From Hymenobacter siberiensis (GTDB taxonomy: Bacteria > Bacteroidota > Bacteroidia > Cytophagales > Hymenobacteraceae): a DNA stretch of 64,000 nucleotides. The notes beneath the pieces were generated by a model. It worked only from the letters and a program-made list of their open reading frames with translations. It did not search any database and had not been told where the DNA came from. A program made the position numbers and the translations under genes. Position 1 is the first letter of the stretch. Each line of letters begins with the position of its first letter. Shown here piece by piece: positions 18,313 to 32,717 of the stretch. Location of the stretch: positions 3,720,001 through 3,784,000 of the forward strand of contig NZ_JAHLZZ010000001.1 in the NCBI RefSeq assembly GCF_018967845.1, given 5' to 3'.

Positions 18313-20937
18313 CTACTTCCCGTACGAAATCATGTTCGTAATCAGCCGGTACGCCCCCGGCACGCCCGCCGGTAGCTCCCGGAACAGCGACAGGCCCGTG
18401 TAGATGTAGTGGCCCTTGCCGTAATCCGTGACCAGAATGGCGCTTTCCTTGGCCGCCTCGCCGGGGTCGCTGCTCGAAATGACGGTCTGGTATTTCGGGT
18501 CCCACTTCGAGGGGTAGTACAGGCCCTGCTCCTGCACCCAGCCTTTGAAATCCTGCTCGGTAATTTTGTTGGGCGCGGCCAGCAGCGGGTGCTTCGTCAG
18601 GGTCACGGGGGCGTCTTCCACGGTTACCCGGTCGCGGGAAAGCGTCATGGGATAGGGGCCGATTTCGGGCAGCACCGTGCCCCGGTCCACCACGTACTGC
18701 ACCACCACGTTGCCGCCGGCCTCGATGTATTTCAGGATTTCGGGCTGCTTGGTTTTCAGGGCCTCGACGGTGTTGTAGGCGCGGATGCCGACCACCAGCG
18801 CATCGAACTCCTTGAGGCGAGCGGCGCTGATTTCCTCGGGCTTGAGCAGGGTGACGGTGTAGCCGATTTGGCGCAGGGCGTCGGGCACTTCGTCGCCGGC
18901 ACCCATGAGGTAGGCCACGTTCTGGCCGCGCCGCTTCAGGTCGAGCTTCACCAGCGGGGCCACGGCCTCGGGGAAGAGGAACTGCGTGGGGATGTGCGGG
19001 TATTCAATTTTCTGGATGCCGCGGGTGTAGGCCTGCCCGGCCACGGTGGCGGTGGCGCGCAGCTCGGCGCGGCCGGGCGCGGCCCCGGCCAGGGGCTGCA
19101 CCTGGAAGTTCACGGTCAGCTCCTCGTCTTTGGCGGCGAGGGCGAAGTCGGCGGTGGCGGGCTCGCACTTCCAGCCGGCGGGCAGGGCCAGGGCCAGGCT
19201 GCCGCTCACCCCGACGCGCCCGGCCCGCAGCGTGACGGGCACGGTCTTGGGCTGGGCATCGGCGAAGATGTAGGAACGGGCGGGCGGCAGGTTCACCAGC
19301 ACGGGCGGCACCACGGCCAGCGGCTGGTAGAGTTCGCCCAGCACGGGGTCGGTGTGCTTGTATTGCACGGGGATGGTGAATGTTAATTTCTCAGTCCCCA
19401 TTTGCACATCGAAATACACCTCGCATGGCGGCGCATTTTGTGCTTCGCCAACTGACAATTGTTCCTGAACAGAATACATCCCAATCGTGCCGGATTTACG
19501 AAGCCAATATGGTTGTGTTATCTGTTCTTTGCTAAAATCGGTAATAGCAAAATTCCCAACTACCTTTTTATTCTGTGATAAAACAGTTTTCTGAAATGCC
19601 GCTCCATTTACTTGTAATGTGTTTGGTTGGATAGCTTGGAAAATTGGAAGTCGGGTTTCGTTTTGATGATTTGCTGCTATCGATAGCAATGTTATAGGCG
19701 CAGACGACCGATTTACAACTTCAAAATCAACCTTAATAGGAACGTTGTTGCCTTCAGAAGTAGCGACAGAATTAGTGGCTGCGGTTGCTTCAATAGCAAG
19801 TCCTGATGCTGCTTGCAGCAGTTGATTCGTTTCCGCAATTTTCTCTTTTAGCCAAAAGACATTCCTGGGATTATTATCTAAATGGGTGTACATCGTTTGG
19901 TCTGACGAGTTTTTATCAGACTTATTTGATAAGGCCATTAGTTGCTCCCGCACCTTCAGCAGCCCCGCCACGCTGGCGCTGGGGTTGCTCGCGTCGTACT
20001 TGCGAATCACCTCCTCGATGAGCTTGCCCACGGCCGCGCCGCCGGGCACCCGGTTCCAGGTCTGGTCCACGCCTTCGAACAGGTCTTTGGTGGCTTTGTC
20101 GCCTTTCACGGGCTGGAAATACTCCAGCGCCTCGCCCCGCTGGGCGGCCGAGCCGAAGCCCTGGCTGCGGTGGTTGGAGCGGCTGCGGGCCGCGATTTCG
20201 CCGTAGCTCTGGCCCAGCAGGGGGTTGTAGCCGCCGGCATCGAGCCGGAGGTAGCCGTCCATGTTTTCGCCGGGCTTCACGAAGAAGCTGCCGGTGTTCC
20301 AAAGCAGGCGCTTGGGCTGCCAGGCTTGCACGTACTGGAGCTGTTCGGGGAAGCGCTTGGGGTCGCCGGCGGCGTCGAAGGCTTCGGCAGCGAGGATGGC
20401 GCTGGCCTGGTGGTGGCCGTGGCCGGCGCGGGCATCGGGCGGAAAGCGGGTGATGAGCACATCGGGCCGGCGCTGGCGGATGACCCACACCATGTCGGCG
20501 AGCACCTGCTCCTTGTCCCAGATGCGAAAGGTTTCGTCGGAGGTTTTGGAGAAGCCGAAGTCGTTGGCGCGGGTGAAGAACTGCCGGCCGCCGTCGAGCC
20601 GCCGGGCCGCCAGCAGCTCCTGCGTGCGAATCACGCCCAGGCCCTCGCGCAGCTCGGGGCCGATGAGGTTCTGGCCGCCGTCGCCGCGGGTGGCGCTCAG
20701 GTAGCTGGTTTCGAGCAGGCGCTCGTTGGCCATGTAGGCGATGAGGCGGGTGTTTTCGTCGTCGGGGTGGGCGGCGATGTACATCACCGAACCGAGGACG
20801 TTGAGCTTCTTGAGACCCAGCAGGATTTCGGAGGAAGTGTAGGACTTCGGCGTTTGGGCCTTCGTCTCAATGAAGAATGAGGAATGAAGAGTGAGGAATG
20901 CCGTGAGGACGGCAATGGGGCGGAGGAGTCGGAACAT
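18313..20937 (-). CDS. Large secreted PIG-L/LmbE-family deacetylase-like protein
   Basis: The 874-residue product has an N-terminal signal, then the PIG-L domain (residues about 45-260) with the zinc motif AHPDDENTRLIAYMA and the RAGHGHHQASAI block. A middle beta-rich part follows, and from about residue 650 a class-I glutamine amidotransferase-like domain (DALVVGIRAYN, GGNVVVQYVVD). PIG-L enzymes hydrolyse N-acetyl groups from sugars. The middle segment (about residues 330-520, DNA 19376-19945) is distinctly more AT-rich than both sides while remaining in frame. The frame is intact, so a chimera or recombinant patch is possible. Confidence 0.9.
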   Translation of the reverse strand: MFRLLRPIAVLTAFLTLHSSFFIETKAQTPKSYTSSEILLGLKKLNVLGSVMYIAAHPDDENTRLIAYMANERLLETSYLSATRGDGGQNLIGPELREGLGVIRTQELLAARRLDGGRQFFTRANDFGFSKTSDETFRIWDKEQVLADMVWVIRQRRPDVLITRFPPDARAGHGHHQASAILAAEAFDAAGDPKRFPEQLQYVQAWQPKRLLWNTGSFFVKPGENMDGYLRLDAGGYNPLLGQSYGEIAARSRSNHRSQGFGSAAQRGEALEYFQPVKGDKATKDLFEGVDQTWNRVPGGAAVGKLIEEVIRKYDASNPSASVAGLLKVREQLMALSNKSDKNSSDQTMYTHLDNNPRNVFWLKEKIAETNQLLQAASGLAIEATAATNSVATSEGNNVPIKVDFEVVNRSSAPITLLSIAANHQNETRLPIFQAIQPNTLQVNGAAFQKTVLSQNKKVVGNFAITDFSKEQITQPYWLRKSGTIGMYSVQEQLSVGEAQNAPPCEVYFDVQMGTEKLTFTIPVQYKHTDPVLGELYQPLAVVPPVLVNLPPARSYIFADAQPKTVPVTLRAGRVGVSGSLALALPAGWKCEPATADFALAAKDEELTVNFQVQPLAGAAPGRAELRATATVAGQAYTRGIQKIEYPHIPTQFLFPEAVAPLVKLDLKRRGQNVAYLMGAGDEVPDALRQIGYTVTLLKPEEISAARLKEFDALVVGIRAYNTVEALKTKQPEILKYIEAGGNVVVQYVVDRGTVLPEIGPYPMTLSRDRVTVEDAPVTLTKHPLLAAPNKITEQDFKGWVQEQGLYYPSKWDPKYQTVISSSDPGEAAKESAILVTDYGKGHYIYTGLSLFRELPAGVPGAYRLITNMISYGK

Positions 20938-20987
20938 GCGCGGGAAACCGGGGTTGAGGGCGTGAAGTTACCAGCCGCCGGCCCTCC

Positions 20988-21130
20988 CGTTGCTGGCGCA
21001 CGTCTGCGACACGTGCTGACTGGCGGTGAGCCTGTGGCTCGGGCAATGAAGACGCTGCCATACGTAACCCCTTACCCGAGCCAGAGGCTCGGGGCCGGTC
21101 GGCACGTGTCGCAGACGCGCGCCAGCAACG
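20988..21130. repeat. 33-bp inverted repeat with nested GAGCC/GGCTC hairpins
   Basis: Arms 20988-21020 and 21098-21130 differ at two bases (core CTGCGACACGTGC). The loop contains an additional dyad (AGCCTGTGGCTCGGG and CCCGAGCCAGAGGCTCGGG). It stands in the divergent gap between the PIG-L gene and the winged-helix gene, directly before the 21-bp array. Confidence 0.85.
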
Positions 21131-21161
21131 GGGCGCACGGTCGCGCAACAGTACGGGAGCA

Positions 21162-21405
21162 GTTATTTAGCCAGGTGTTGTGGTTAGTTAGCCAAACATT
21201 GTAGTTAATTAGCCAGACATTTTGGCTAGTTAACCAGATATTGCGGCTAGTTAGCCAGGCATTGCAATTAATCAGCTTGGTTTAGTAGTTATTCAGCCAG
21301 ATTCTGCGATTAATTAGCCAGGTATTTTAACTAATTAGCCGGTTTATGTAGTTAATTAGCCAGGTGTTGCAATTACTTAGCCTGAAATTGAATTAAATTA
21401 GCCCG
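21162..21405. repeat. Array of about 11.6 degenerate 21-bp direct repeats
   Basis: Eleven full units start at 21162, 21183, 21204, 21225, 21246, 21267, 21288, 21309, 21330, 21351 and 21372, plus a partial unit at 21393-21405, with no spacers. The consensus is about GTTAATTAGCCAGG-ATTGTA. The core TTAGCCAG is the best kept part. The repeat is AT-rich in a GC-rich region and runs up to the winged-helix gene (start 21432). The exact 21-bp period equals two helical turns, so the cores lie on one face of the DNA. No unique spacers exist, so this is not CRISPR. Confidence 0.9.
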
Positions 21406-21431
21406 TGGATTTACATTTCCATCAATACGCT

Positions 21432-21830
21432 ATGCCCGAAACCCTACCCGCCGCCTTTGCCCGCCGCGTAGCCGAGCGCGACAACCCGCCGCCACCGCCC
21501 CCACTCAGCCAGGAGCCCGCCGCCGTGCAGGCCCGCCTCGAAAACTGGCTGCTGAAGACCTATAAAGTGCGCGACAAGCGCGGCCGTCTGCGCCAAAGCC
21601 TGATGCTGCTGGCCCTGATGCAGCACCCCGAGCGCACCACCGCCGAGCTGGCCGAAGCATCCGGACTGCCCGCCCGGGCCGCCGCCCGCGTGGCCGTGCG
21701 CCTCGGCGAATTTGACCTGCTCACCTGGGAATACCGCAGCCTCTGGCGCTACTGGCACCTCACCCGCGCCGCCGAAGATGCCCTGTTGCTGGTGGTGGTG
21801 GGGCTGCCCACGCCCGCGCCGGTCGCCTAG
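21432..21830 (+). CDS. Small winged-helix (MarR/ArsR-like) DNA-binding protein
   Basis: The 132-residue protein has a Pro-rich linker (NPPPPPPLSQE) and then a winged-helix-like domain from about residue 35: NWLLKTYKVRDKRGRLRQS, helix LMLLALMQHPERTTAELAEASG, recognition helix ARAAARVAVRLGEFDLLTWE and wing YRSLWRYWHLT. No ligand domain is seen. A GTG at 21405 would add nine residues but lies at the end of the 21-bp array; I prefer ATG 21432. The repeat array is immediately upstream, which suggests this protein may bind it, a hypothesis only. The family is not recognised beyond the fold. Confidence 0.75.
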   Translation: MPETLPAAFARRVAERDNPPPPPPLSQEPAAVQARLENWLLKTYKVRDKRGRLRQSLMLLALMQHPERTTAELAEASGLPARAAARVAVRLGEFDLLTWEYRSLWRYWHLTRAAEDALLLVVVGLPTPAPVA

Positions 21831-21942
21831 CGGCGCAACATCGGGCCGGGCGGGTGCGTCTTTGGCGCGGCTGAACTTCATTTGTGTGAAAATCGGTTTA
21901 TCACCCACACCGGCTGCCCACTTGCGGCCACTTCCTTTGTTT

Positions 21943-23598
21943 ATGACGATTCTTCCCTTCCGCCGCTGGTCGCTTTCGCTGGCCTTATTGGCGCTGCCCG
22001 CCTTGGTCCAGGCCCAGGCGGTGAATGCACCCTCCCCCACTCCCGCCACCCCCACCGGCGATATGAGCGCCGCCCAGTGGTACCTCAAAGACCCGCAGCT
22101 CGACAACGTGCCCGGCGTGGGGGCCACCCGCGCCTACGCCGAAATTCTGAAAAACCTGATTCCAACGCCCGTTATCGTGGCCGTCATTGACTCCGGGATT
22201 GACACGGCCCACGTCGACCTCAAGCCCGTGCTGTGGGTGAACCGGGGTGAAATTCCCGGCAACGGCATCGACGACGATAAGAACGGCTACATCGACGACG
22301 TGCACGGCTGGAACTTCCTCGGCGGGGCCGACGGCCGCAACGTGAACGCCGAAACCCTGGAGATGACGCGCATCGTGGCCGCCGGCCGCAAGCGCTTTAA
22401 AACTATCACGGCCAAAACCGTGAAGCCCGCCGATAAGGCTGACTACGCGCTGTATAAGAAAGCCGAGAAAGCGTATTCGGCCCGCCTCAAGGAGGAAACC
22501 GAGCGCAGCAAGCAGGTCGAAGAAATGTCGGGGCCTCTCACCATGATGGTGACAAACATGAAGCAGGCGCTGGGCACCGACAAGCTCGACACCACCGCCC
22601 TCAAAAATGCCAACACCAGCGACCCCAACCTGAAACGCGCCGTGGCCGGCATGCTCGACATGATGCGCCAGACCGGGGCCGCCGATGCCGATGCCCTGCT
22701 CAAGGAACTGAACGAGGGCATGAAGCAGGAGCGCAGCATGCTGGACAATTCGCTGAACCTGAGCTTTAATCCCCGGGCCGACATCATCAAGGACGACCCC
22801 GAGGACGTGAGTCAGCGCTTCTACGGCAACAACGACCTCCACGGCCCCGACCCCATGCACGGTACCCACGTTTCGGGCATTATCGCGGCGGTGCGGACCA
22901 ACAACCTCGGCATCATGGGCCTCGCCCCCGACCCGGTGCGCATCATGATGGTGCGGGCCGTGCCCGACGGCGACGAGCGCGACAAGGACATTGCCAACGC
23001 CATCCGCTACGCCGTAGACAACGGCGCGCAGATTATCAACATGAGCTTCGGCAAGGAATTCTCGCCCCAGCGCCCGGCCGTGGAGGCCGCCTACAAGTAC
23101 GCCGCCCAGAAAGGCGTGCTGCTGGTACACGCCGCCGGCAACGAAAACCACAACCTCGACGTGGCCGACAACTACCCGGCCTCGTTCTACCTGAACAACA
23201 CCACCATCCCGAACCTGCTCACGGTGGGCGCATCCGGCCCGAAGGACAACGTGAACCTGACCGCCGATTTCTCGAACTACAGCAAAAAGGGCGTTGATGT
23301 GTTCGCGCCCGGCGTGGGCATCTACAGCACGCTGCCCGGCAGCACCTACGGCAACGAAAGCGGCACCAGCATGGCCTCGCCCGTCACGGCCGGCGTGGCA
23401 GCAGTCCTGAAATCATACTTCCCCAAGCTCACGGCGGTCGATTTGAAGCGCATCATCATGCAGTCGGCCCAGGTGCACCACACCAAAGTGCAGACGCCCG
23501 GCGGCGAGAAGCAGGTCGATTTCTCGACGCTGTCCGTAACCGGCGGCGTGGTGGATATGTACGAAGCCGTGAAGCTGGCGCAGAAGGCATCACTATAA
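21943..23598 (+). CDS. Secreted S8 (subtilisin-like) serine protease
   Basis: The 551-residue product has a signal peptide (WSLSLALLALPALVQAQA). The catalytic triad is Asp83 (VAVIDSGIDTAH), His309 (MHGTHVSGI) and Ser476 (GTSMASPVTAGVAA), with the oxyanion Asn in HAAGNE. An insertion of about 200 residues, charged and helical, lies between Asp and His and is typical of S8 proteins of Bacteroidota. There is no obvious T9SS sorting tail, so it is probably periplasmic. ATG 21943 starts the signal peptide. Confidence 0.95.
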   Translation: MTILPFRRWSLSLALLALPALVQAQAVNAPSPTPATPTGDMSAAQWYLKDPQLDNVPGVGATRAYAEILKNLIPTPVIVAVIDSGIDTAHVDLKPVLWVNRGEIPGNGIDDDKNGYIDDVHGWNFLGGADGRNVNAETLEMTRIVAAGRKRFKTITAKTVKPADKADYALYKKAEKAYSARLKEETERSKQVEEMSGPLTMMVTNMKQALGTDKLDTTALKNANTSDPNLKRAVAGMLDMMRQTGAADADALLKELNEGMKQERSMLDNSLNLSFNPRADIIKDDPEDVSQRFYGNNDLHGPDPMHGTHVSGIIAAVRTNNLGIMGLAPDPVRIMMVRAVPDGDERDKDIANAIRYAVDNGAQIINMSFGKEFSPQRPAVEAAYKYAAQKGVLLVHAAGNENHNLDVADNYPASFYLNNTTIPNLLTVGASGPKDNVNLTADFSNYSKKGVDVFAPGVGIYSTLPGSTYGNESGTSMASPVTAGVAAVLKSYFPKLTAVDLKRIIMQSAQVHHTKVQTPGGEKQVDFSTLSVTGGVVDMYEAVKLAQKASL

Positions 23599-27173: not shown

Positions 27174-30100
27174 ATGCCTACAACCTTACTACGGCGTTTT
27201 TTTGGGCCGATGCTACTCCTGGCGCTGCTGGTGCTGGGCACGCGCCCGGCGCAGGCCTCGCACCTATTGGGCGGCGAGATGAGCTACCGCTACCTCGACG
27301 CCACCGGACCGGCCGCCACGCCCTTTCGCTATGAGATAACCCTGACGGTGTACAGCAACGGCCTGTATACCAATGCCAACCCCAACGGCATCGCGGCTCC
27401 CCCGGTGAGCGCGCCGATTGAAATATACAATCGCACCACCGGGGTGCGCATTGCCAACTATACTTTCAGCCGTACCTCACCCACGGCTACCAACGCCAAC
27501 CTGCCGCCGCCCATTGCCCCGCCCGTGCCGCAGGGCTGCGCCGTGAGCGGCCCCAGTCAGCCGTTTTACCTGTGCAAATACGTGCAGACGGTGAACCTGC
27601 CGGTGTCCTTCGATGGCTACTACGCCGTGTACTCGGTGGGTGCCCGCAACAACACCCTGACCAACGTGAACAACCCCGGCGGGGGTACCGGCGGCAACGT
27701 GCCCCTGACGCTGTACGTGAGCATGGCCCCGCCGCTGATTTACAACCGCTCGCCCGTATTTTCGGATACGGCCGTGGCCATCGTGTGCCAGAACGATACC
27801 ACCATTTCGCTCAACAATGCCTTTGACCCCGACGGCGACCGCCTGGTGTACTCTTTTGGTACGCCCTACGGCTTCCCAACCCCCGGCGGCACTTTCCCAC
27901 CCTTTCCCCAAGCGGTACCCTATTACCCGGCTTACAGCGCGGCCAACCCCTTTGGGACGGGCGCGGGCAACTTTGCGACCATCAATGCCAGTACGGGCAT
28001 CGCCAAATATGGGGCCCGCACCAACGGCCTCTACGTAGTAGCGGTGGATGTGGCAGAATACCGCACCATCAACGGCGTGGAAGTGCTGATTGGCACCACT
28101 CGACGAGACTTGCAGCTGGTGGTATCGACCTGCCCGCCCACCACGGCGCCGGTGCTGCCGGCCCCTACCCTCACTCCCCGCAGCTATACCATTGAGGAAG
28201 GCCAGTCGCTGACCATTCCGATTACGGCCACGCAGGCCAGCGGCAACCACCCGCTGGTGCTCACCGTGAACAGTGCCCTGCTCGATGGCAGCGGACCGTT
28301 CAACACCACCTTTAATGGCAGTACGGGCACGGTGCAGCCCGGCAACCTCACCGGCACGGCTACCGCCACCGGCACCGGCACGGTATCGGGCACGTTCATC
28401 TACAGCTCCGGCTGCGGCCAGGCCCGCACCACACCCTACGACCTGGGCGTGACCGTAAAGGATAACGGCTGCGGCGGCAAGCTGGCTTCCGATATTTTCC
28501 GGGTGACGGTGACCCGCGCTGCCGGCCCCAACGCCATTACCGGCCCCACCACGGTGTGCGACCCCGCCACGGTGCGTACCTACACCGCTGCCGGCCCCGT
28601 GCCGGCCTCCTACCGCTGGCGCATCACGGGCGGCACCATCACGAGCGGCCAGGGCACCAATGCGGTGCAGGTAACCTGGGCCAACGCCAATACCACCGGC
28701 CTGCTCTCGCTCAAGGGCATTTCGACCTACGGCTGCCTGTCGGACTCGGTGGTTAAATCCGTGGACATCCGGCCCCTGCCGGCCCTCACGGCCACGGCCC
28801 TCGCGCCCAGCATCTGCCTGGGCACCTCAACAACGCTGACTGTGACGGGCCTGGCGGGCCTTACCTACGTGTGGTCCGGTGGCGGTATTAGCTCCACCAG
28901 CACCACCGTTACGGTAATACCCACCGCCACCACCACCTACACCGTGACCGGCACCGACGGCACCTGCTCCGTAACGGCTACCGTGACGGTGACCGTGACG
29001 CCTCCGCCCGTGGCCAACGCCGGCCCTGCCCGCACCGTGTGCCCCAACGTGGCTTCTACGCCGCTGGGCGTGGCAGCTGTCACCAGCTTTACCTATGCCT
29101 GGACGCCGGCTCTGGGCCTGAGCAGCACTACCGTGGCCCAGCCCACTGTGACGCTGCCCAACCTGACCGGCGCCCCCATCACCCAGACCTACACGCTCAC
29201 CGTATCCTCCGGCCCGAGCTGCTCCAGCACCTCTTCGGTGGTGGTGACGGTGAGCCCCGCCGCCGTAGCCGATGCCGGCCCGGTCCGTACGACCTGCTCG
29301 GGAGTGGCTTCGGCCGCCATTGGCACCCCGGCGCTGGCCGGCTACACCTATAGCTGGAGCCCGGCCACCGGCCTGAGCAGCGCCACCGTGGCCCAGCCCA
29401 CCGTGACGCTGCCCAACCTGACCGGCACGCCCATCACCCAGAGCTATACCGTGACGGCTACTAACAGTACGGGCTGCACCGCGACTTCGACGGTCATCAT
29501 CACCATCAACCCTGCGGCCGTGGCCATTCCCGGCCCGGCCATTAGCTTCTGCTCGGGTACGGTTTCGGCCCCACTGGGCAGCACGACTACGCCCGTGGCC
29601 GGCACTACCTATAGCTGGAGCCCGACCACTGGCCTGAGTGACCCGACTATTGCCAACCCCACGGTAACGGGCACTAACACGACGGGCGTGCCCATCGTGA
29701 GGACTTATACCCTGATTACCACTTCGCCCCTCGGCTGTCCCTCGGCCCCTGCCACCGTGGTGGTAACCATCAACCCCGCCGCCGTGGCCGATGCCGGCCT
29801 GGCCAAGGCGACCTGCTCGAACGTGCCCGTGGCCATTGGCAACGGCACGGCCGTGGCCGGCACCACCTACGCCTGGAGCCCGGCCACCGGCCTGAGCAGC
29901 ACGTCGGTGCTGAACCCGACCGTGACCCTGCCCAACCTAACGGCCGCCCCCATCACCCAGACCTACACCCTGACGGCCACCACCGCCAACGGCTGCACCG
30001 CCACCAACACGGTGGCAGTAACCATCAACCCCGCCGCCGTGGCCGATGCCGGCCTGGCCAAGGCGACCTGCTCGAACGTGCCCGTGGCCATCGGCAACGG

Positions 30101-32717
30101 CGCAGCCGTGGCCGGCACCACCTACGCCTGGAGCCCGGCCACCGGCCTCAGCAGTGCCTCGGTGCTGAACCCGACCGTGACCCTGCCCAACCTGACCGGC
30201 GCCCCCATCACCCAGACCTACACCCTGACGGCCACCACCGCCAACGGCTGCACCGCCACCAACACCGTGGTGGTAACCATCAACCCGGCCGCCGTGGCCG
30301 TGACGGGAGCCAACCAGGCCGTGTGCTCGGGTTCGACCATTACGCTGGGCGCCGCCCCGGTAACGGGCTACACCTACAGCTGGAGCCCGGCCACCGGCCT
30401 GAGCAGCGCCACCGTGGCCAACCCCACCTTCACGCTAACCAACACCACGGCCACCCCGACCCCCATCATCTTCACCCTGACCGCCACTACCGCCAACGGC
30501 TGCGTGGCCGCCAGCCCCGTGACCGTGACCGTGAACCCCGCCGCCGTGGCCGATGCCGGCCCCGCCGCCGCCGTCTGCGACCTCAAAACTATTACCCTGG
30601 GTACCCCGGCCCGCACCGGCTACACCTATAGCTGGGCCCCGGCTACGGGCCTGAGCAGCAGCACTGCCGCCCAGCCCGTGTTCACGGCCTCGAACACCAC
30701 GGCCCTACCCACTACCCGCACTTATACCGTGACGGCCACCACCGCCAATGGCTGCGTGAGCACCAGTGCCGTAGTTATCACCATCAACCCGCGCCCGCTG
30801 CCTTCCGCTATTGTGGGGCCGGCTTCGGTGTGCCCCACGGTTACGGGCATTGCCTATTCGGTGGCCAACCCCGTGGGCACGGCCTTTACCTGGCTGATTC
30901 GTGGCGGTACCATTGCCAGCGGCCAGGGCACCCCGGCCATCGCCGTGGACTGGGGCGTGGCCAGCACCGGCGGCTACCTCAAGGTATTCAGCTTGAATGC
31001 CCAGGGTTGCTCGTCCGATACTACTACCCTGCCCATCATCATCAATCCCCGCCTGCAAACGGTGCGGCCCACCGGCCCCGGCGACATTGTGGCCGTAGCC
31101 CCGCTGCCGCGCGCCGTGTGCCAGGCTGATGGTCCCTATCGCTACGTGAGCGGCATTTTCGCCAACGGCTCCAGCTATGCCTGGACCATCATCGGCGGTA
31201 CGCAGGTGAGTACCCTACAGAATACGGTGACCGTGAACTGGGCTCCGGTGACGGTGCCCACCATCGGCAAAATCGTGGTGACGGAAACCAGCAACCCCGC
31301 CAGCGGCGTACGCTGCCTGGGCACTTCCGATACCCTCAAGGTGCTCATCAACCCCTCGCCGCGCCCCACCCTGGCCATCACCGCCCCGGTGCGCGTGTGC
31401 CAGACCAACGGCCCCGTGACCTTCGGCCTGCCCGGCGGCTTCACCGGCTCGACCTACGTGTTCCAGCTGGCGGGCGCTACCCTGGCCGGCACCGGCAATA
31501 CCCGCGTGCTCGCCACGCTGCCCGCCCCCGGCACCTACACTCTTACGGTGCAGGAAACCACTTCGGCCGGCTGCACCGGCCCGGTGTACACTACGCCATT
31601 CACGGTGGCTCCTACGCCCACCGCGCCCACTATTTCGGGCTCGGGCTTCGTGTGCAATGTGGCTACGCCGCAGCAATACGCCATTGCCAACCCCACGGCC
31701 GGCGCCAGCTACCAGTGGACCATTGTGGGTGGCACCGTCACAGCCGGCGGCACCAGCAGCCAGGTTACGGTGCGCTTCAACGCCACCGGACCCTACACGG
31801 TGAGCGCTGCTGAAATCAGCGCCGCGCCTGCGTCCTGCACCGGCCCGGCCACCATCCGCACCATCCTCTTCGATAGCCCGACGCTGACCCTGACCAACGC
31901 CTCGGTAGATGCCGCCAGCAACAGCCGCGTCATCATCTCGCTGGGCACGCTCAACAGCGCCAACACGCCCAACCCGGTGCAGGTACTGCGCCGCGTGGCG
32001 GGCGCGGGCAGCTTCGCGCCGGTGGGTACGGTTGCGGCTTCGGCCACCACTTTCACCGACAATAGCGCGGTAGATGCCAACGCTAATTCCTACGAGTACC
32101 AGCTCAGCCTCACCAACGGCTGCGGCACAGTTACTACTACCGGCGTGGCCCAGACCATCCGCCTGCAAGCCACTGCTACCGCCACCGCCGGCGGCCGCGA
32201 CCAAGGCAGCACGGCCCTCACCTGGAATGCCTTCGTGGGCTTCGCGGTGAAGGAGTACCGCATCTACCGGCGCACCGACGCCGGCGCGCCGGTGCTTATT
32301 GCCACGGTGAGCCCGACCACGCTGCAATACACGGCCACCAACACCGACCCCAACAGCACGGCCACCGGTCTGGGCTTCAGCCAGAACTTCCGGGTAGTGG
32401 CCGCCAGCACCGATGCCACCCCGCTGCTCTCGAACTCGAACGAAACCAGCGTGAGCTTCGCCAACGCCGTGAAGACCTACAACGTCATTACCCCGAACCG
32501 CGACGGCCAGAACGATGTGCTCGTCATCGACAACATCGGCCTCTACCCCGGCAACACCTTCACCATCTTCAACCGCTGGGGCCGCGAGGTGTACAAAACC
32601 ACCAACTACCAGAACAACTGGGGTGGCGACGACAACACGCCCGCCGGAAACTACTTCTACATCCTCACCCTGCCCAACGGCACGAGCGTAAAGAACTGGT
32701 TCGAGGTGGTAAAGTAA
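27174..32717 (+). CDS. Giant secreted repeat protein with T9SS type B sorting tail
   Basis: The 1847-residue product has a signal peptide (LLALLVLGTRPAQA) followed by SHLLGGEMSYRYLD, the usual N-terminus of a large Bacteroidota surface-protein family. From about residue 430 on it is built of Ig-like/PKD-like beta modules, including seven consecutive modules of about 85 residues with the pattern YTYSWSPATGLSS ... NPTVTLPNLT ... TYTLTATTANGC ... TINPAAVADAG. The C-terminus (YNVITPNRDGQNDV ... NRWGREVYKT ... WGGDDNTPAGNYFYIL) is the gliding-motility-associated type B T9SS sorting domain. It is probably an adhesin on the cell surface. A C11 tract lies just upstream. Confidence 0.94.
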   Translation: MPTTLLRRFFGPMLLLALLVLGTRPAQASHLLGGEMSYRYLDATGPAATPFRYEITLTVYSNGLYTNANPNGIAAPPVSAPIEIYNRTTGVRIANYTFSRTSPTATNANLPPPIAPPVPQGCAVSGPSQPFYLCKYVQTVNLPVSFDGYYAVYSVGARNNTLTNVNNPGGGTGGNVPLTLYVSMAPPLIYNRSPVFSDTAVAIVCQNDTTISLNNAFDPDGDRLVYSFGTPYGFPTPGGTFPPFPQAVPYYPAYSAANPFGTGAGNFATINASTGIAKYGARTNGLYVVAVDVAEYRTINGVEVLIGTTRRDLQLVVSTCPPTTAPVLPAPTLTPRSYTIEEGQSLTIPITATQASGNHPLVLTVNSALLDGSGPFNTTFNGSTGTVQPGNLTGTATATGTGTVSGTFIYSSGCGQARTTPYDLGVTVKDNGCGGKLASDIFRVTVTRAAGPNAITGPTTVCDPATVRTYTAAGPVPASYRWRITGGTITSGQGTNAVQVTWANANTTGLLSLKGISTYGCLSDSVVKSVDIRPLPALTATALAPSICLGTSTTLTVTGLAGLTYVWSGGGISSTSTTVTVIPTATTTYTVTGTDGTCSVTATVTVTVTPPPVANAGPARTVCPNVASTPLGVAAVTSFTYAWTPALGLSSTTVAQPTVTLPNLTGAPITQTYTLTVSSGPSCSSTSSVVVTVSPAAVADAGPVRTTCSGVASAAIGTPALAGYTYSWSPATGLSSATVAQPTVTLPNLTGTPITQSYTVTATNSTGCTATSTVIITINPAAVAIPGPAISFCSGTVSAPLGSTTTPVAGTTYSWSPTTGLSDPTIANPTVTGTNTTGVPIVRTYTLITTSPLGCPSAPATVVVTINPAAVADAGLAKATCSNVPVAIGNGTAVAGTTYAWSPATGLSSTSVLNPTVTLPNLTAAPITQTYTLTATTANGCTATNTVAVTINPAAVADAGLAKATCSNVPVAIGNGAAVAGTTYAWSPATGLSSASVLNPTVTLPNLTGAPITQTYTLTATTANGCTATNTVVVTINPAAVAVTGANQAVCSGSTITLGAAPVTGYTYSWSPATGLSSATVANPTFTLTNTTATPTPIIFTLTATTANGCVAASPVTVTVNPAAVADAGPAAAVCDLKTITLGTPARTGYTYSWAPATGLSSSTAAQPVFTASNTTALPTTRTYTVTATTANGCVSTSAVVITINPRPLPSAIVGPASVCPTVTGIAYSVANPVGTAFTWLIRGGTIASGQGTPAIAVDWGVASTGGYLKVFSLNAQGCSSDTTTLPIIINPRLQTVRPTGPGDIVAVAPLPRAVCQADGPYRYVSGIFANGSSYAWTIIGGTQVSTLQNTVTVNWAPVTVPTIGKIVVTETSNPASGVRCLGTSDTLKVLINPSPRPTLAITAPVRVCQTNGPVTFGLPGGFTGSTYVFQLAGATLAGTGNTRVLATLPAPGTYTLTVQETTSAGCTGPVYTTPFTVAPTPTAPTISGSGFVCNVATPQQYAIANPTAGASYQWTIVGGTVTAGGTSSQVTVRFNATGPYTVSAAEISAAPASCTGPATIRTILFDSPTLTLTNASVDAASNSRVIISLGTLNSANTPNPVQVLRRVAGAGSFAPVGTVAASATTFTDNSAVDANANSYEYQLSLTNGCGTVTTTGVAQTIRLQATATATAGGRDQGSTALTWNAFVGFAVKEYRIYRRTDAGAPVLIATVSPTTLQYTATNTDPNSTATGLGFSQNFRVVAASTDATPLLSNSNETSVSFANAVKTYNVITPNRDGQNDVLVIDNIGLYPGNTFTIFNRWGREVYKTTNYQNNWGGDDNTPAGNYFYILTLPNGTSVKNWFEVVK
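29766..30275 (+). repeat. Two near-identical 255-bp tandem units inside the giant gene
   Basis: Units 29766-30020 and 30021-30275 (85 codons each) differ at only a few bases (for example GGCACGGCC versus GGCGCAGCC). Three more diverged units precede (about 29010-29765) and two follow (about 30276-30790). The near-identity points to recent duplication or gene conversion; copy number may vary between strains. Confidence 0.88.

Follow-up and report, generated by a model that had tools for sequence, protein, structure and literature searches.

What a long array of short direct repeats does in front of a small winged-helix gene, and whether the protein encoded there reads the array, is the question raised by this locus. 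The window, that is, the whole stretch of 64,000 nucleotides that was analysed (G000:C1:3720001-3784000), lies within a contig of 4,709,305 bp. An earlier note had hypothesized from the letters alone that the adjacent protein binds its own array. The following features of the window are considered.

20978 to 21829, no strand assigned: block of hairpin, array and gene; the part of the PIG-L/subtilase interval that DNA matches to the close relative G009 do not cover
21161 to 21403, forward strand: direct-repeat array, 11.6 units of 21 bp with core TTAGCCAG in a single register, proposed to be bound cooperatively by the adjacent protein
21412 to 21419, forward strand: putative -7 box TACATTTC (compare TAnnTTTG), 20 bp before the winged-helix ATG
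21432 to 21830, forward strand: winged-helix gene (MarR/ArsR-type), 132 aa; conserved extra N-terminal helix predicted

The presence of a 21-bp repeat array before the winged-helix gene was confirmed by TRF, by a repeat search and by a shuffle test. TRF reported 11.6 copies of period 21 at 21161-21403 with 68% matches and 1% indels, and the repeat search found ten 54-nt copies in the array, for which 9 of 9 spacings were exactly 21. When the array was folded at 21, TTAGCC occurred in 9 of 12 rows and the full TTAGCCAG in 5 of 12. Identity at lags of 21, 42 and 63 was 0.68, whereas it never exceeded 0.385 in a null set of 1200 family upstream regions shuffled in blocks; a chance tandem repeat was therefore rejected. 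The array ended 28 bp before the ATG at 21432. No second copy was found elsewhere in the genome, and matches to the paired motif with at most three mismatches were confined to the array in a scan of the whole genome. The single 18-mer, at the same tolerance, matched 26 times, with 8 of these matches inside the array and 18 outside it, versus 9 for the reversed control, and some of the outside matches may be lone binding sites.

The array is flanked by an inverted repeat that had been described as a 33-bp palindrome. The inverted repeat was indeed present, but it turned out to be part of a larger imperfect one, with 61-nt arms at 20986-21046 and 21072-21132 that were 87% complementary, and six other long and three short copies of it were found elsewhere in the genome. 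This hairpin (20986-21132) is a member of a dispersed, REP/MITE-like family and is unrelated to the array. Other hairpins were seen by eye near several homologous loci. The PIG-L gene lies upstream of the winged-helix gene in divergent orientation, and a subtilase gene starts at 21946, 115 bp past the winged-helix stop codon; further neighbours encode GDPD, PAP2, an amino-acid kinase with ACT domains, a short-chain dehydrogenase and PKD/GEVED proteins. The statement that no replication, partition or CRISPR gene is adjacent was borne out by a Pfam scan of seven window neighbours, none of which was such a gene. A CRISPR array was rejected because the 21-bp units are contiguous, without spacers, and no cas gene occurred among the scanned neighbours. 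Elsewhere in the window, 255-bp tandem repeats were observed at 29115-30300 within an ORF of 1847 aa (27174-32717).

The ATG at 21432 was taken as the start codon, as homologs align from there, some of them being a few residues longer; a longer ORF from GTG 21405 had no support from homologs. The AlphaFold2 model of the protein had a mean pLDDT of 88.5 and contained an N-terminal helix (residues 5-17), a linker and a winged helix within residues 29-123. Foldseek and VIA matched this model to MarR, ScoC and SmtB/CzrA and also to TrmBL2 and AspA; the comparison with pNOB8 AspA (4rs8) gave a Z of 10.8 and an rmsd of 2.9 over 78 residues. The protein is thus predicted to be a winged helix with an extra N-terminal helix. 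None of the seven Pfam families listed for it was matched at the gathering score (16.7 versus 27 bits for MarR_2), and there was no NCBIfam match at E 0.01. The 60 homologs analysed below gave weak Pfam matches to MarR_2, HVO_A0261_N, HTH_Crp_2, HTH_20, TrmB and others, and MerR was absent from the 22 families listed for them. Weak matches from Pfam, NCBIfam and PADLOC were to HTH-bearing models only, for example, HTH_20, ArsR-type and Csa3. The recognition helix was the most variable segment (2.32 bits), compared with 1.50 bits for the N-terminal helix and 1.30 bits for the C-terminal helix. The dN/dS ratio was 0.05-0.30 in 11 of 11 member pairs, which points to purifying selection on the protein.

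Homologs were collected at increasing taxonomic depth. A single-sequence search gave 56 matches in 25 of 120 genomes of the genus, and a profile search gave 74 matches in 34 of them, the protein family not being found in the other 86. In the family-level sample, 37 of 204 genomes had matches, including three of the sister genus, and among 390 genomes sampled across the order, matches beyond the family were limited to five genomes and to 56-59 residues of the HTH. The analysed set comprised 60 members from 28 genomes, 25 of Hymenobacter and three of the sister genus. It was obtained by leaving out 17 of the 74 matches (fragments, weak matches and duplicates) and adding three sister-genus members. 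Those left out as fragments or weak were G020, G025, G033, G042, G012, G018, G101, G118, G016:C5, G115:C212, G113:C1 (twice), G045:C36 at 18918 and 19172, and G095:C269; the same-species copy G072 and the contig-end member G093:C56 were also omitted. The maximum was seven members in one genome, G006. The window protein matched nothing in 72,556 plasmids and 50,697 phages, the family profile matched no viral contig, and one 601-bp locus of G198 had no match in plasmids. A prior description of this protein-array family was not found in the open-licence literature.

Array and gene were searched together in related genomes, which was one of the checks proposed in the earlier note. Up to 600 bp upstream of each of the 60 members were scanned for periods 12-35 (24 periods). 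Period 21 was the best in 55 of 60 upstream regions. The five others preferred 14, 20, 28 (twice) and 30 and showed 41-43-bp periodicity with scores of 0.45-0.73 (42 bp in G006:C15, G060:C17 and G113:C94a, 43 bp in G067:C11a and 41 bp in G067:C10); G045:C36a also fitted 43 bp (0.57) better than 21. Hence the claim that the period is exactly two DNA turns held for this array and most of its relatives but not for a subset with 41-43-bp units. A score of at least 0.45 was reached by 42 of 60 members versus 18 of 1484 other scan windows of the same loci, and a score of at least 0.50 by 33 members versus 8 such windows, the highest of which scored 0.793. There was no clear array in two members, G105 and G054 (the contig of the latter stops 285 bp upstream), and only a weak one in G019, G067:C22, G104 and G045:C3. 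Arrays were called in 54 of the 60; the co-variation and register tests used 41 of them (score of at least 20), the 42-bp test 52, the dyad test 49 and the RNA test 37. In the 41 well-called arrays, the median copy number was 11.5 (range 6.0-19.4), and the G+C content spanned 0.33 to 0.61, so AT-richness is not essential.

The subtilase regions of 40 relatives were then fetched, 24 of which had an adjacent PIG-L gene and lacked the family gene; the 16 without a PIG-L match were excluded from the count of empty sites. None of these 24 empty home sites reached 0.45 when the whole interval was scanned, the maximum being 0.42 at 21 bp and 0.38 at 41-43 bp, and 12 of 15 occupied home sites scored at least 0.45, with G019, G054 and G105 as the exceptions. 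Two empty sites that preferred 21 (L204 and L206, 0.39-0.42) were rejected as arrays, as by eye they consisted of coding sequence and unrelated DNA. In G033, a weak gene remnant was found upstream of the subtilase gene; PIG-L was not found there, and the array was absent. In G009, the subtilase of which is 97% identical, DNA matches to the window stopped at 20977 and restarted at 21830. Arrays lying far from any homolog of the gene had been named as evidence against the hypothesis; at the home site, array and gene were present together and absent together, and the hypothesis was not refuted. Two side observations concern empty sites. That of G009 contained, by eye, two copies of a unit of about 23 bp rather than 21 bp (ATGACAAYCGGGCGTACTTTC, L171:1270-1370). 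In G046 (L172/L186), other DNA, probably a gene, filled the PIG-L/subtilase interval at the position equivalent to 20978-21829, and by eye it resembled DNA beside the module in G067:C19 and G099:C67.

The unit consensus differed widely among members (TTAGCCAG, TTCCTGACAAG, AGGTCAG, GATACCGG, TTGCATA, CGATCCAC, GCTTGGTATT and others). Register 0 nevertheless scored highest for 450 of the 472 units of the 41 well-called arrays, as determined with leave-one-out matrices, and despite this kept register the linker columns agreed in only about half of the cases. Judging from these comparisons, it is the spacing that is guarded and not the unit sequence. The window protein was 84 and 82% identical to those of G067:C19 and G043:C1a (dS 0.41 and 0.37, respectively), and the units of their arrays were about equally similar to those of the window at any in-phase offset (0.62-0.70). 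Therefore, the positional correspondence of these units is gone or not detectable. The proteins of G008, G043:C1b and G067:C24 differed by a dN of only 0.025-0.040, yet their arrays shared 47-54% at the best offset, one offset being slightly better than the others. The best reading of these data is that array and protein co-diverge fast.

A 42-bp super-period was detected in 13 of 52 arrays, the halves of which were little or partly alike (shift-21 similarity 0.04-0.45), so that these arrays look like higher-order repeats. A subclass with 42-bp dimer units was noted at L116, L099, L098, L110 and L155. The unit measured 43 bp in two members of one site and 41 bp in one member of another, and thus the spacing can drift by one base in dimer-unit arrays. 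A dyad operator in each unit was not supported, since only 4 of 49 arrays showed unit dyad symmetry at p < 0.05, with a combined p of 0.22. The 31-bp motif that characterizes array C283 of G099 had 5 matches in that genome, all of them inside the array.

Whether unit sequence follows the protein was assessed for the 41 well-called members. Among their 820 pairs, unit similarity exceeded 0.6 on the same strand 46 times and on the reverse strand 10 times. After correction for the remaining protein regions, array similarity was related to HTH helices 2 and 3 (partial correlations of 0.163 and 0.173, attained in 1 and 0 of 500 permutations), and no relation was found for the N-terminal part, helix 1 or the wing. 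The C-terminal helix showed the strongest relation (0.268, 0 of 500), and because this signal exceeded that of the recognition helix, part of the co-variation is relatedness. Similarity above 0.6 was found in 0 of 38 within-genome array pairs and 46 of 782 between-genome pairs; since about two were expected within genomes, it is only suggestive that paralog arrays in one genome are kept dissimilar. These findings suggest a lock-and-key relation in which protein and repeats evolve jointly. Both the joint presence and absence and the tracking of HTH helices by the units lend good comparative support to the adjacent protein as the predicted reader of its own array.

The region between array and gene was searched for promoter-like elements. 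The Bacteroidota -7 consensus is given as TAnnTTTG in the passages of PMC7366714. A TA[CT][ACT]TT box was present within 130 bp before the start codon in 47 of 60 members, where shuffling expects 13.0 with a maximum of 23, and in 5 of 60 on the other strand. The box lay 0-65 bp past the array end in 21 of the 28 members in which it was picked outside the array pattern; therefore, the array of these 21 members most likely represents a DNA element lying upstream rather than leader RNA. Boxes picked inside the array in some members may be due to chance. Rayleigh tests of the box phase against the array gave p values of 0.021 and 0.04 for these 28 related sequences and 0.16 and 0.033 for the 22 near ones, which makes helical phasing of the promoter box suggestive only. 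A promoter-like box near the start codon fits the autoregulator that the earlier note had considered.

Clustering of neighbours revealed seven recurrent sites and three singletons. Site labels changed 8 times on the protein tree compared with a shuffle mean of 36.3. The PIG-L/subtilase label changed 4 times, 3 of them forced by well-supported branches, and its members fell in three separate parts of the tree. This pattern would be explained by one old home site and rare moves of the whole array-gene unit. In representatives of the six other sites, nearest neighbours included MutS2, DUF2400, WG-repeat, TonB-like, AIR synthase, FUSC and thymidylate synthase, with five of these twelve neighbours unmatched in Pfam. 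Replication, partition, CRISPR and transposase genes were not matched among the seven window neighbours and the twelve elsewhere. Six sites in five genomes with dnaA placed were located 37-94% of the way from dnaA, taken as the origin, to the opposite point.

Considering these data together, the locus is best read, with a probability of roughly 60%, as a self-contained autoregulatory module, the protein of which would bind its own helically phased array cooperatively while the two co-diverge fast. Because 21 bp corresponds to two turns of B-DNA, the units lack dyads, the protein has an N-terminal helix and the array lies on the promoter side, a head-to-tail filament of the winged-helix protein on one face of the DNA is proposed. 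The end of such a filament would reach or overlap the promoter of the gene itself and thereby control its transcription, repression being the likelier sign. Units would probably turn over by duplication of blocks of one, two or three units, and the recognition helix would follow the change, giving each module a private specificity and leaving paralogs of the same genome insulated. Against this explanation stand the stronger C-terminal signal, the weak phasing of the promoter box, the members with a weak or no clear array and the other scan windows with high scores. In addition, simple autoregulation would need far fewer operators than the ten or more proposed here, and relatives of the MarR/ArsR type usually bind dyads as dimers, whereas the units here are without general dyad symmetry.

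Other explanations were weighed against the autoregulatory module. A tentative possibility, well short of an even chance, is that these are bacterial "satellite plus binder" pairs, in which satellite-like turnover of the array drags the specificity of the binder along, the several insulated nucleoprotein loci of a genome having a structural or selfish role and not one in regulating other genes; the two-unit higher-order repeats, as in eukaryotic satellite DNA, would belong to the same picture. If so, these pairs would represent a type of chromosomal element of which no bacterial counterpart was found described in the literature searched. It is unlikely that the protein coats the array as a centromere- or anchor-like mark to position the locus (in segregation, nucleoid anchoring or as a domain boundary), in the manner of the adaptor of a plasmid partition system, with a motor or other partner encoded elsewhere. 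Such a role would be in line with the layout of TubR/tubC, in which a small winged helix that is also a repressor accompanies an upstream direct-repeat array (according to the passages of PMC5016525), with the match of the model to AspA, and with conserved N- and C-terminal helices beside a variable recognition helix, which would suit a common partner. However, ParA, TubZ and ParM were not matched among the seven window and twelve other-site neighbours (five of the latter unmatched), 86 of 120 genus genomes yielded no family match, the structural match is generic for winged helices, and up to seven modules of different specificities in one genome would be odd for a segregation site. Rather improbable is a selfish or mobile module that moves from one chromosomal site to another and persists through self-regulation or addiction and not through any benefit. 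The patchy presence, the up to seven copies per genome, the fragments, the recurrence at seven sites with PIG-L/subtilase members in separate parts of the tree, and the absence of the whole block from G009 speak for it, but the tested neighbours included no transposase match, the plasmid, phage and viral searches were negative, and the rarity of site changes indicates that modules mostly descend in place.

The position of the window array between the divergent PIG-L and winged-helix genes would also permit it to serve a different regulator that controls the neighbouring PIG-L or subtilase genes. This is very improbable, considering that neighbours differ at the six other recurrent sites while arrays still precede the winged-helix gene, that the region just upstream of the subtilase gene is conserved in relatives without the module, and that unit type tracks the winged-helix protein. 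Action of the array as RNA, either a structured leader or a repeat RNA, is hardly credible. The window array with its leader folded better than dinucleotide shuffles (z -3.45), but against a repeat-preserving null the mean z for 37 arrays was -0.17 on the coding strand and -0.28 on the other strand, no Rfam match was found in 20900-22000, and the box follows the array in most members with a box picked outside it. An RNA element was therefore rejected as a general explanation.

The autoregulatory module is of interest beyond the single locus. With a common fold and geometry and many specificities, the roughly 60 natural pairs of protein and array constitute a ready set for learning how winged-helix specificity changes, and they are a possible source of orthogonal repressor-operator arrays. 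They also raise the question of why up to seven private, fast-diverging protein-repeat loci are kept in a genome without another visible target. The core hypothesis of the earlier note, strengthened but unproved, has acquired strong comparative support and a scope larger than one locus.

In plasmid iterons, direct repeats spaced near two helical turns are bound by a winged-helix Rep protein. The iteron-like label applies here to the repeat geometry but not to the gene content, as no Rep initiator adjoins the repeats among the tested neighbours, and the element is chromosomal with a single small winged helix. As in MarR/ArsR regulators, the predicted fold is a winged helix, with no curated family match above cut-off. 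The type III plasmid partition system TubR/tubC, as the passages of PMC5016525 describe it, shares a small winged helix with a repeat array upstream of its own operon; autorepression and a filament are described there, and both would apply to the Hymenobacter module by analogy. It differs in that no TubZ or other motor gene was found beside the array here, and in that the modules are chromosomal and occur in several copies with different arrays per genome. The pNOB8 protein AspA has a similar winged-helix fold. It occupies DNA in front of its own gene, spreading over 200 bp with a single 23-bp palindrome as nucleation site, and parB and parA come next (passages of PMC5120986), whereas many direct repeats and no par gene beside them were found here. 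In layout, a repeat or nucleation site upstream of the gene of its binder, a putative one here, is thus common to TubZRC, AspA-ParBA and the present module; the motor ATPase or GTPase of those cassettes had no match among the seven window and twelve nearest neighbours elsewhere (five unmatched).

BldC of Streptomyces is likewise a small winged-helix protein that forms a cooperative filament on asymmetric direct repeats of varying number (passages of PMC5859096), as the protein here is proposed to do. Its direct repeats measure 9 bp, or are placed at intervals of about one helical turn in the filament (passages of PMC11963761), versus 21 bp, with a 41-43-bp subset, in the present arrays; moreover, BldC acts at several targets and is MerR-like, whereas here one private array precedes the gene of a protein with a MarR/ArsR-like predicted fold, for which MerR was not among the Pfam families listed. 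RdfS, a recombination directionality factor of an ICE, is described in the passages of PMC11963761 as a winged-helix protein that oligomerizes head to tail, carries an additional N-terminal helix and negatively autoregulates its own promoter, but also as being without a consensus motif and as residing in an ICE with an integrase. As far as these passages go, none of the precedents unites all three traits of the present modules, namely a private array, the lack of a partner gene and the occurrence of several insulated copies in one genome. By analogy, precedents for each step of the proposed mechanism exist in BldC, RdfS and TubR.
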